A DNA stretch of 21,672 nt, from IMG/VR virus record IMGVR_UViG_3300025674_000469, positions 1 through 21,672 of that record; one strand, written 5' to 3'. How positions within the stretch are numbered: position 1 is the first letter of the stretch; each line of letters opens with the position of its first letter. Shown here in pieces: positions 2,711-6,386 of the stretch. The DNA is from a virus. The notes under the pieces are model-generated. The model searched no databases, had not been told where the DNA came from, and saw only the letters and a list, made by a program, of their open reading frames with translations. Both the position numbers and the translations under genes were made by a program.

Positions 2711-2886
2711 AATGTTGGCATTGTAATACTGAATTAATATGGGGTGGTGATCATGACATCGACGAAGAGAATGATACTTACTCAATGGTAACTAATTTAT
2801 CGTGTCCCGAATGTCATAGTTTTGTAGAAGTATACTATCCTAACGAACAAACACAAAAAGAATATAAAAAATATGAAACACAATAA
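2707..2886 (+). CDS. Conserved zinc-ribbon protein (59 aa)
   Basis: The ATG at 2707 overlaps the preceding TGA (ATGA). Four cysteines form two knuckles, C3-W-H-C6 and C33-P-E-C36, separated by an acidic loop with Trp-Gly-Gly-Asp-His-Asp. The C-terminus is Lys/Glu/Tyr rich. I recall this exact layout (Cys-Trp-x-Cys, Trp-Gly-Gly-Asp-His, Val-Thr-Asn-Leu-Ser-Cys-Pro) as one of the most frequent small proteins in uncultured marine phages, usually beside replication or nuclease genes. Role unknown. It overlaps the exonuclease gene by 14 bases. Confidence 0.8.
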   Translation: MKCWHCNTELIWGGDHDIDEENDTYSMVTNLSCPECHSFVEVYYPNEQTQKEYKKYETQ

Positions 2887-3565
2887 TCAATACATCTATC
2901 CAAAATGCGTTAGGTCCAATGTCGACGGTAAACGGGTCTATGATATTAACGATGGTCAATTTAAATTACCTAGTGTCACAACAATACTCTCTGCCACACA
3001 ATCGGCCGAGAAGCGCGAAAAATTAGCCGCTTGGAGAAAAAGGGAGGGAGAGGCCAATGCAGCGCGGATCGTTGAAAAATCAGGTGCTAGAGGCACAGCA
3101 ATGCATAAGATTTTGGAGAAGTATGTCCTAGGAGAAGGATATATGGATATGACAACAGTGGGTCAAGAAGCACATAATATGGCACAAAGAGTTATTGAAC
3201 AAGGTTTATCAAATGTGAGTGAGTATTTTGGATCAGAAGTAACTTTATACTACCCCGGACTATATGCAGGACAGACCGATTTAGTGGGGTTACATAAAAA
3301 TGAACCTGCTATTATTGACTTTAAACAAACTAATAAACCAAAAAAGAGAGAATGGATTGAAGACTATTGTGTACAGTTAGCGGCGTATACTATGGCACAT
3401 AATTTTGTTTACAGAACAAATATATCAAAAGGTGTCATTATGATGTGTAGTAAAGATAATTACTATCAAGAATTTATTATACAAGGACTTGAGATGAAAA
3501 AATATATGCATGAGTTTTTAAAAAAAATAGATCAATACTATGAAGAAATGAGAGGTAAAGATTGA
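2873..3565 (+). CDS. RecB/MGME1-like PD-(D/E)XK exonuclease (230 aa)
   Basis: The full motif set of a RecB/Cas4/MGME1-type nuclease is visible: Pro-Ser-Val-Thr-Thr-Ile-Leu at 33-39, Gly-Thr-Ala-Met-His78 (motif I), Glu122 in a strand, Tyr-Ala-Gly-Gln-Thr-Asp136 (motif II), Ile-Ile-Asp149-Phe-Lys151 (motif III), and Gln168-Leu-Ala-Ala-Tyr172. These coordinate Mg2+ and bind the DNA end. Phage members of about 220-300 residues act as single-strand exonucleases in recombination, replication-intermediate processing or recycling of host DNA. The ATG lies within the zinc-ribbon gene, and the end overlaps the next gene by TTGA. The family is clear; the exact substrate is not. Confidence 0.85.
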   Translation: MKHNNQYIYPKCVRSNVDGKRVYDINDGQFKLPSVTTILSATQSAEKREKLAAWRKREGEANAARIVEKSGARGTAMHKILEKYVLGEGYMDMTTVGQEAHNMAQRVIEQGLSNVSEYFGSEVTLYYPGLYAGQTDLVGLHKNEPAIIDFKQTNKPKKREWIEDYCVQLAAYTMAHNFVYRTNISKGVIMMCSKDNYYQEFIIQGLEMKKYMHEFLKKIDQYYEEMRGKD

Positions 3566-4443: not shown

Positions 4444-4580
4444 AGAGAAAAACAGCATTTACATTTAGATTAAACTGTATTTTAAAAAGATGTAAAGAAG
4501 AAGGCAAGTGGGATTTATTATCAAGATTGGCATATAAATATAGCATCGTAATAAATGGAGATAAATATTATGACTTCTAA
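4440..4580 (+). CDS. Small basic hypothetical protein (46 aa)
   Basis: The ATG at 4440 overlaps the previous stop (ATGA) and the frame ends with TAA at 4578-4580, overlapping the next gene by 11 bases. The sequence is Lys/Arg rich with two cysteines five residues apart (C13, C18) and a Trp-Asp-Leu-Leu segment. No family is recognised. Support comes from the coupled overlap and the lack of another frame filling the gap. Confidence 0.55.
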   Translation: MKRKTAFTFRLNCILKRCKEEGKWDLLSRLAYKYSIVINGDKYYDF

Positions 4581-4752
4581 AGAAAAAGGTAAAAAATATG
4601 ATGGTAGATCAAGACCATCAAATGAAGCCTACAAAAATGGTTGGAATGAAATTTTTCTCAATCAAGTTATGAGAGAAGAAGTTGACATCAACGCAACAGG
4701 CACACATAAATACAGAATAAAAACAGGACCCAACAAAGGAAAAGTTGTTTGA
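4570..4752 (+). CDS. Small conserved hypothetical protein (60 aa)
   Basis: The start is at the ATG at 4570, because GGAG (4557-4560) sits 9 bases upstream; the earlier in-frame ATG at 4555 overlaps that site. The protein is hydrophilic: an N-terminal Lys/Gly/Asp segment, a helix (NEAYKNGWNEIFLNQVMREE), and a C-terminal Lys-Thr-Gly-Pro-Asn-Lys-Gly-Lys tail. The repeated Gly-Lys turns suggest a partly disordered, basic tail. Function unknown. Confidence 0.6.
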   Translation: MTSKEKGKKYDGRSRPSNEAYKNGWNEIFLNQVMREEVDINATGTHKYRIKTGPNKGKVV

Positions 4753-4973: not shown

Positions 4974-5474
4974 TTAATCAGATGCAGGGATTTGTTTTGT
5001 TTTTGATTCTGTTGTTGTCTCTTCTGGACTAACATCAATTAAAGATTTGTGATCATCAAGAATTTGTTTAAGTTTAGATTCTAATTCTTTCTCCGACATA
5101 TTATCTAAATTACCTGTCATAATTAATTTTTGATCTACGTAAAGACCACCCGCTTTACCACGTGCTACTTCTGCGTTTATTGCGGCAGACCACGCTCCCT
5201 TCGCTCGTGCATCCTCTCTTAACTTTGCTAGTTCCCCAATATGTTTTTCAAAAGTGATACCATATTTTTCTTGTATCTCTGCTCGTAGCTCACCTATATA
5301 TCTGACTACTAATGGTGAAAGTTTTGGATTACGTAGCTCGCTCGCAGCCTGTCTAGGTCTAGTCTTATACCCTGCCTCATATGCACACTCGCTCGGACTC
5401 TTGCGCCCTTCGTTGTATACAAGTAATTCAGCAAATTTTTGCTGTCGTTCAGTTAAATTTTTAGGTAATCCCAT
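4974..5474 (-). CDS. terS: Terminase small subunit (DNA-packaging recognition protein)
   Basis: The N-terminal region Leu-Thr-Glu-Arg-Gln-Gln-Lys-Phe-Ala-Glu-Leu-Leu-Val, followed by Ser-Ala/Pro-x-Glu-Cys-Ala-Tyr-Glu-Ala-Gly-Tyr and Ala-Ala-Ser-Glu-Leu-Arg-Asn-Pro-Lys, is the helix-turn-helix signature of terminase small subunits (Terminase_2 type). A helical oligomerisation segment and an acidic tail follow, and 166 residues is normal for the family. It would recognise the packaging site and regulate TerL. I start at the ATG at 5474; a TTG at 5510 would add 12 residues, and neither has a good RBS. It is on the opposite strand to TerL and about 5 kb away, which is unusual. Confidence 0.85.
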   Translation of the reverse strand: MGLPKNLTERQQKFAELLVYNEGRKSPSECAYEAGYKTRPRQAASELRNPKLSPLVVRYIGELRAEIQEKYGITFEKHIGELAKLREDARAKGAWSAAINAEVARGKAGGLYVDQKLIMTGNLDNMSEKELESKLKQILDDHKSLIDVSPEETTTESKTKQIPASD

Positions 5475-5524
5475 AGATTGACTTTTAGCGTAATTTATCG
5501 TATTAATCAAGATGTAGCGTTGGC

Positions 5525-5698
5525 TTACGAAATATTTAATAGATATGGATACTGGGCGCTACTTCGCTTGCTCGCACCCTTATTTAATTTAGGCCTACCA
5601 TGCTTTGCTCGATACCAATGCGCTGGATAACCATTTTCTCTACACCATTCACGGTGTACAATATCTATTTGTGATTGCCACTTTGTAGGTTTATTCAT
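5525..5698 (-). CDS. Hypothetical protein (57 aa) behind a junction repeat
   Basis: The ATG at 5698 is set by the junction repeat that supplies its RBS (AAGGGA, 4 bases from ATG). Upstream in-frame codons merely read the repeat in another frame. Residues 11-37 hold His-Arg-Glu-Trp-Cys-Arg-Glu-Asn-Gly-Tyr ... His-Trp-Tyr-Arg-Ala-Lys-His-Gly-Arg, rich in Trp and His; I cannot assign it, though a metal- or nucleic-acid-binding role is conceivable. Its C-terminal codons carry a degraded resemblance to the repeat (GCGAGCAAGCGA). Last of the repeat-joined genes before TerS. Confidence 0.65.
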   Translation of the reverse strand: MNKPTKWQSQIDIVHREWCRENGYPAHWYRAKHGRPKLNKGASKRSSAQYPYLLNIS

Positions 5699-5725
5699 AT
5701 TATCCCTTCTGCTCGCTCGCTTGTT
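5694..5725 (-). repeat. Junction repeat, copy 1 (32 bp)
   Basis: On the minus strand this copy reads AACAA, GCGA x2, GCAG, AAGGGATAAT and ATGAA. It encodes the last residues (Gln-Ala-Ser-Glu-Gln-Lys-Gly) and stop of the 73-aa gene, the Shine-Dalgarno AAGGGA overlapping that stop, and the ATG of the 57-aa gene. It is identical to copy 3 over 32 bases and differs from copy 2 at one base. Confidence 0.9.
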
Positions 5726-5921
5726 TATAGCCCCAATCAAAATAATCACATATTTGATCTAGACTAAATGATTTAATTAATTTTATATCTTCAACTCCAT
5801 ACTCATCTTCTTTGTGATAATCTTGTAAATGAAAATCAATTAAATATTCTCTTAATAACTTTTTAGATTTAAATTCCATTGGCTCACAAGCCCCTTGTAA
5901 ATCTATTCTAACTACTTTCAT
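5700..5921 (-). CDS. Conserved hypothetical protein (73 aa)
   Basis: Starts at ATG 5921 with the RBS AAGGGA of junction-repeat copy 2. The sequence Lys-Val-Val-Arg-Ile ... Ala-Cys-Glu-Pro ... Leu-Arg-Glu-Tyr-Leu-Ile-Asp-Phe-His, then an acidic stretch and Leu-Asp-Gln-Ile-Cys-Asp-Tyr-Phe-Asp-Trp, matches a small marine-phage hypothetical family I recall. The last seven residues (QASEQKG) are encoded by the junction repeat and are shared almost exactly with two neighbouring, otherwise unrelated proteins, so the tail is probably not part of the folded domain. Confidence 0.75.
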   Translation of the reverse strand: MKVVRIDLQGACEPMEFKSKKLLREYLIDFHLQDYHKEDEYGVEDIKLIKSFSLDQICDYFDWGYKQASEQKG

Positions 5922-5948
5922 ATTATCCCTTCTGCTTGCTCGCTTGTT
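5917..5948 (-). repeat. Junction repeat, copy 2 (32 bp)
   Basis: Same organisation as copy 1, with one substitution in the GCGA run (GCAA), so the encoded tail reads Gln-Ala-Ser-Lys-Gln-Lys-Gly. It joins the stop of the 61-aa cysteine-rich gene to the start of the 73-aa gene. Confidence 0.9.
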
Positions 5949-6108
5949 CTTTTAACTCCCATTGACAATCACTATTATAAATTGCATTGGGATATTTTTC
6001 TTTAACTTGTATATCTTCACATTCAAAACAAACATAAGCATTATCCGTTATATTATCACAACCTTGTGTACAATCTTTATTTGGTTTAACGTGTTTTAAT
6101 AAGTTCAT
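5923..6108 (-). CDS. Small cysteine-rich, probably zinc-binding protein (61 aa)
   Basis: The start is the ATG at 6108 provided by junction-repeat copy 3. Cysteines at C13, C17, C27 and C30 (Cys-x3-Cys ... Cys-Phe-Glu-Cys) form a plausible single zinc site, with an additional Cys48. The remainder is polar. The C-terminal tail ends Gln-Ala-Ser-Lys-Gln-Lys-Gly, encoded by the next repeat copy. No family is recognised beyond a small zinc finger. It belongs to the repeat-joined cassette string. Confidence 0.7.
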   Translation of the reverse strand: MNLLKHVKPNKDCTQGCDNITDNAYVCFECEDIQVKEKYPNAIYNSDCQWELKEQASKQKG

Positions 6109-6135
6109 ATTATCCCTTCTGCTCGCTCGCTTGTT
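6104..6135 (-). repeat. Junction repeat, copy 3 (32 bp)
   Basis: Identical to copy 1 over 32 bases. It carries the last codons and stop of the 55-aa gene, the AAGGGA ribosome site and the ATG of the 61-aa gene. Confidence 0.9.
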
Positions 6136-6277
6136 GTTGATTATACTCATCATCTACCACTTCTTGAACATCAATGATTTCATCATTGTAACTTTTTTCT
6201 TCGTTTGCTTTTTTTTCTGCATCATATTCGTCATAAGCATCTACAAAAAATTCTTTTATAACTCTATATTTTTTCAT
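6110..6277 (-). CDS. Small acidic protein (55 aa) in the repeat-joined string
   Basis: Starts at ATG 6277 behind the AAGGGA of repeat copy 4 and ends within copy 3. After a basic head (MKKYRVIKEFF) the chain is very acidic and Asn-rich (Asp-Glu-Tyr-Asp, Val-Val-Asp-Asp-Glu-Tyr) before the repeat-encoded Gln-Ala-Ser-Glu-Gln-Lys-Gly tail. The beta-alpha start and acidic end resemble small phage inhibitor or mimic proteins only in composition. No function can be assigned. Confidence 0.65.
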   Translation of the reverse strand: MKKYRVIKEFFVDAYDEYDAEKKANEEKSYNDEIIDVQEVVDDEYNQQQASEQKG

Positions 6278-6312
6278 ATTATCCCTTCTGCTCGCTCGCT
6301 CGCTCGCTTGTT
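6273..6312 (-). repeat. Junction repeat, copy 4, with expanded GCGA tract (40 bp)
   Basis: Same sequence as copies 1 and 3 but with two additional GCGA units (8 bases longer), so five GCGA/GCAG units instead of three. It supplies the RBS and ATG of the 55-aa gene. The expansion shifts the upstream reading frame relative to the other copies. Confidence 0.9.
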
Positions 6313-6386
6313 AACTTAAAAAGCGGTGCTTTGGTTAGGTCAATCCCCGCTACTAACACCGCCTTAATTTGTATTAAATTAAACAT
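6279..6386 (-). CDS. Possible 35-aa leader peptide ending in the repeat-encoded tail
   Basis: An ATG at 6386, inside the 3' end of the GP88-like gene, opens a frame that runs to the TAA in junction-repeat copy 4. It ends Glu-Arg-Ala-Ser-Glu-Gln-Lys-Gly, like the other repeat-joined proteins. The first part (MFNLIQIKAVLVAGIDLT) is mildly hydrophobic. Against it: a terminator-like hairpin lies within the frame and there is no RBS. It may be a real small gene, a leader peptide, or a decayed cassette. Confidence 0.35.
   Translation of the reverse strand: MFNLIQIKAVLVAGIDLTKAPLFKLTSERASEQKG
6317..6362 (-). terminator. Intrinsic-terminator-like hairpin after the GP88-like gene
   Basis: Reading the minus strand, GCGGTG (6362-6357) and CACCGC (6328-6323) pair, with further GTTAG/CTAAC pairing possible inside. 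They are followed by TTTTT and AAG. The hairpin lies just after the stop of the GP88-like gene. Within the same stretch TTGACC (6344-6339) and TTTAAG (6320-6315), 18 apart, could form a promoter for the downstream repeat-joined genes. Confidence 0.5.

Follow-up and report, generated by a model that had tools for sequence, protein, structure and literature searches.

A probable gene-cassette array joined by a repeated 30-bp junction element in HTVC027P-related pelagiphages

We analysed positions 1 to 21,672 of the IMG/VR virus record IMGVR_UViG_3300025674_000469, a stretch of 21,672 nt referred to here as the window. On its minus strand, a GP88-family gene (PF17338; 6379..7089) and the gene for the terminase small subunit terS (phrog_51; 4974..5510) form the upstream and downstream anchors of an array of small genes. 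These are cassette 1 (6110..6277; 55 aa, family F39), cassette 2 (5923..6108; 61 aa, family F56), cassette 3 (5700..5921; 73 aa, family F36) and, past the last junction, a terminal gene (5525..5698; 57 aa, family F48). The initial annotation had reported four junction repeats at this locus, and all four were confirmed, each on the minus strand. Those between cassettes 1 and 2 (6104..6135), between cassettes 2 and 3 (5917..5948) and between cassette 3 and the terminal gene (5694..5725) have the anatomy that had been described, namely the tail codons of one gene, its TAA stop, an AAGGGA ribosome site and the next gene's ATG. The copy at 6273..6312 had been counted as a gene/gene junction as well, but is a leader copy that heads the array and carries 8 extra bp of GCGA tetranucleotide repeat. 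As had been claimed, the genes between the copies are unrelated: the four genes that follow the four copies fall into four different families. The 20-bp core does not differ among the four copies, and a 15-mer of the GC-rich half of the repeat has 7 matches in the window (at most 3 mismatches) versus 0.30 expected in shuffles. A leader hairpin (6320..6366, minus strand) separates the GP88-family gene from the first element and is one of many unrelated hairpin types found at this position. A 35-aa open reading frame (ORF; 6279-6386), which would end in the leader copy, begins within the stop region of the GP88-type gene and crosses the hairpin; it is probably spurious and not a gene, because the hairpin differs in relatives.

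The junction element has the minus-strand consensus AACAAGCGAGCGAGCAGAAGGGATAATATG (~30 bp), with CAAGCGAGCGAGC as its GC-rich half. Information content goes up at about -27 and drops directly past the ATG. The element holds the end of the upstream gene with its stop codon, together with the ribosome site and start codon that serve the next gene. ORFs that start at an element are mostly 45-110 aa long; 110 of 267 terminate in the next element, and 35 of 267 do not end in a nearby element, most of them stopping ahead of it. Two GCGA-type units are present in 91 of 128 internal copies, as the reading frame would favour. Codon use at the junctions (CAG 0.97, AGC 0.90, GCG 0.83, AAG 0.84) is far from that in the bodies of the same genes (CAG 0.05, AGC 0.12, GCG 0.12, AAG 0.09), and these rare codons kept at the junctions bear out the earlier claim of conservation at the DNA level. 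Neither a stem-loop nor a terminator lies within the element, as it has no stable fold (-1.9 kcal/mol, z -0.7, RNA parameters). A promoter was likewise ruled out: the sole -10-like hexamer adjoins the ATG, so that a start from it would be intragenic, and two -35 positions are unconserved. Shortened variants of the junction, e.g. CAAGCGAGGAATAATG, were seen at the 3' ends of the last cassettes in contigs L007, L011, L091, L095, L188 and L194, which suggests that arrays run on past the strict motif.

The exact 20-mer core was found in 68 IMG/VR contigs and a 17-mer in at least 119, to which split-pattern scans added no further contig. A mismatch-tolerant search gave 270 element sites in 120 IMG/VR contigs, window included. 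Relaxed patterns gave 327 sites in 167 contigs, a count that may include unrelated look-alikes; the reversed-motif control gave 0 sites in the contig set so tested. Apart from two contigs with one weak site each on the other strand, all sites have one orientation. The relaxed patterns also match the start of a GP88-like gene (family F9) in L150, L168 and similar contigs, where a ribosome site that resembles the element, rather than a cassette, probably accounts for the match. Among 50,697 deposited phage records, none covered 80% of a 40-bp query. The 17-mer had 16 matches in GTDB genomes, about chance level, in scattered taxa and none in SAR11, and this chance-like scatter rules out a host origin of the element. 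We found no description of the element in searches of open-licence papers, including a keyword search of one HTVC023P-type genome paper.

By sequence kinship, the phages that carry the array are HTVC027P-related pelagiphages, mostly uncultured ocean phages. The closest cultured backbone is that of Pelagibacter phage HTVC027P (TerL 76%), and because of this kinship their host would be SAR11. HTVC027P has a GP88-like gene (recognised by eye) and terS at the matching place, without an array. At the same locus, array-less relatives have CAAGCNN heptad or GAGC repeats, as seen in L143 (HTVC027P; 5092-6339) and in L146 (phage 023Pt_psg01; near 2300), and the GC-rich half of the element may have arisen from such repeats.

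Array statistics were computed for 94 dereplicated arrays, the small genes of which were grouped into 83 protein families. A GP88-type gene lies upstream in 72 of the 94 arrays and terS downstream in 80; the arrays that lack a flank call are mainly on contigs that end too early to tell. The strand of the array is that of the GP88-family gene and terS, and each of 16 larger records has one single cluster of element sites. The order of genes within this fixed locus is shuffled: 115 adjacencies in the 94 arrays resolve into 111 distinct ordered pairs of small ORFan genes. The initial annotation had proposed cassette exchange and named comparisons with relatives that would bear on it. When gene content was compared across relatives, the element was kept and the genes between its copies differed; gene order was not fixed, whole cassettes differed and the breakpoints lay in the element. 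These comparisons thus support the cassette model. Across 80 leaders, the hairpin falls into 16 or more sequence types. A single type stands at the head of 27 arrays, whose first genes carry 17 different labels, so that the leader itself seems to be exchangeable. Leader hairpins from 17 sources had no match in Rfam, which rules out a known RNA family in them.

Pairwise comparisons place the borders of exchange at the element. Between L105 and the window, the flanks are 86-90% identical on both sides and every inner cassette is different; homology is lost 3 bp after the first ATG begins and returns 11 bp before the last ATG, the terminal gene being common to both. L007 and L011 (95-98%) differ by one cassette, and L093 and L122 have cassettes in common at 94-96% with flanks at about 80-83%. 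Altogether 553 contig pairs (not dereplicated) had both flanks aligned at 80% or more and different array content; in the cleanest cases homology ends within a few bases of the ATG. In pooled identity, pairs with the same upstream and different downstream genes are near-identical through the ATG and then drop, and in pairs with the same downstream gene similarity reaches back to about -22. The window's own cassettes recur elsewhere: cassette 1 in L019 (99% DNA identity), with another gene as its next neighbour, cassette 2 with 85% identical DNA in L010, and cassette 3 with 96% identical DNA in L055, where another gene follows. Cassettes can be 95-100% identical between phages whose terS genes are 63-69% identical, and the GP88-type gene tracks terS with a rank correlation of 0.63, against 0.16 for the cassettes. 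Across the element, linkage of its bases to the upstream gene falls from 0.95 to 0.26, and is 0.03 after it; for the downstream gene the values climb from 0.09 to 0.48, and past the element reach 0.90. This pattern is suggestive of crossovers at various positions in the element, which would be in keeping with homologous recombination; it falls short of proof because the bootstrap intervals at mid-element are wide. All arrays are metagenome assemblies, from which recombination is deduced and not directly observed.

We consider it likely (probability about 0.8) that the locus is a gene-cassette array of HTVC027P-related pelagiphages, in which genes are exchanged by homologous recombination via an element that also supplies translation signals. 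The unit of the array would be one small gene (roughly 45-110 codons) plus one 30-bp junction element. Two phages that share a cell, or two element copies within the same genome, would undergo homologous recombination, leading to the gain, loss or replacement of single cassettes drawn from a pool common to diverged phages. Because all junctions are near-identical in sequence, single cassettes could be exchanged in this way with each gene still translatable. A phage exonuclease and a putative annealing protein may carry out the exchange. The window encodes a phage exonuclease (phrog_298; 2873..3565, plus strand), a candidate partner in homologous recombination; HTVC027P has an annotated exonuclease and an endonuclease VII-like protein, and these nucleases fit such recombination. 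Matches to PF13479 were partial and below cut-off. We infer the mechanism, since no single-strand annealing protein was identified in a recombinase search that covered PF00589, PF00239 and PF13479. Mosaicism of temperate phages is homology-driven and involves Rad52-like recombinases (PMC3945230). The arrays resemble it in that exchange takes place at common sequence borders between diverged phages; they differ in that the border is one repeated standard sequence, and Rad52-like recombinases were not identified here, in a search that was not exhaustive.

It is unlikely, in our judgement, that the element is instead a translation-initiation or coupling signal under selection, with the shuffling of genes being ordinary illegitimate mosaicism. 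The model for such a signal is the start-associated sequence (SAS) of cluster K mycobacteriophages, which has a 13-bp consensus, GGGATAGGAGCCC (PMC3203893). It occurs over half the genome on non-structural genes, with a proposed role in translation (PMC3203893); nearly all copies point the same way, and some overlap the stop of the upstream gene (PMC3203893). Our element is likewise a non-palindromic repeat in one orientation with a ribosome site directly ahead of the start codon, and its stop, ribosome site and start, as well as the frame-favoured pair of GCGA-type units in most internal copies, would suit a translation signal. However, it is 30 bp long, is confined to a single array, marks exchange points and has a different consensus. 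Moreover, conservation to about -27 extends farther than a ribosome site, the upstream half of the element is linked to the upstream gene, and the breakpoints fall at the element.

The arrays also invite comparison with integrons: in both, each unit pairs a single gene with a single site, the locus is fixed, a site stands at the head and the cassette pool is shared. One may picture a dedicated cassette-exchange system of pelagiphages in which a putative phage factor recognises CAAGCGA-type repeats, giving integron-like capture without an integrase, a version that we regard as doubtful. Site-specific recombination proper, in which a dedicated recombinase acts on the element and moves single cassettes in the manner of the integron integrase on attC sites, is improbable. 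The one-gene, one-site organization at a fixed locus with a leader site would agree with it, but in 15 records of 17-51 kb, whose completeness as genomes is not known, tyrosine recombinases (PF00589) were matched in 0 of 15, with the control positive in 14 of 14 genomes, and serine recombinases (PF00239) were absent. Unlike integrons, these possibly incomplete records yielded no integrase IntI, and the element, which has no stable fold, is without attC-like folded imperfect inverted repeats (RNA-parameter fold). The linkage data shift gradually along the element, though with intervals wide enough at mid-element to accommodate a fixed crossover point.

An assembly artefact, by which the common 30-mer joined genes of different phages during metagenome assembly, is very improbable. 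Every copy does come from metagenome contigs, and chimeric joins could conceivably form at short repeats; yet 25 adjacencies each turn up in two or more IMG samples (three samples for two of them, four for one; sample table hand-typed from contig names), which makes chimeric assembly an unlikely source of the gene order. The initial annotation had suggested, as an alternative, that the tail QASEQKG might serve as a functional peptide tag. Protein-level selection for such a tag has a negligible probability. Most internal cassette proteins whose genes terminate in an element do carry the tail, but rare codons are kept at the junctions, where a tag would conserve the amino acids irrespective of the codons that encode them. 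Moreover, 35 genes have their stop ahead of a nearby junction or for another reason do not end there, leader copies are untranslated, homologous proteins lack the tail, and the tail is of low confidence in the structure model of cassette 1.

The initial annotation had also likened the junctions to the PeSLs of T4-like phages, which PMC4503421 (citing Arbiol 2010 and Comeau 2014) presents as short conserved junction sequences with modular gene shuffling between relatives. The analogy holds for function, small genes being shuffled at element junctions in both. It does not extend to structure: PeSLs consist of promoter and stem-loop motifs, whereas our element overlaps coding sequence, has no stem-loop and has no promoter suitably placed for the next gene, and because of these two absences the likeness is functional only. 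The element belongs to neither the T4 PeSLs nor the mycobacteriophage SAS. Mosaicism of phages is well known, but it is rarely possible to see how single small genes are cleanly exchanged. In the array, a standard joint stands at the apparent exchange points, at which dozens of uncharacterised small genes move between diverged genomes of SAR11-type phages. With the element as a simple probe, marine data can be searched for the cassette pool, and long reads make it possible to test how fast and by what mechanism genes are exchanged.

The cassettes also provide a list of candidate host-interaction genes. The 64 cassette representatives had few and weak Pfam and PHROG matches, and tblastn with two of them against deposited phages gave no match. 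Two cassettes were modelled structurally, with modest confidence. The proteins tend to be acidic, with a median net charge of -0.073 per residue and 77% of families negative. In HTVC027P, gp33 and gp34 at the array locus are reported to be highly expressed in early to middle infection (PMC12753301), and the cassettes may act early in infection on the host. Elsewhere in the window, a small plus-strand ORF (4555-4752) resembles by eye gp30 of HTVC027P, a reported ArfA-like ribosome rescue factor (PMC12753301).
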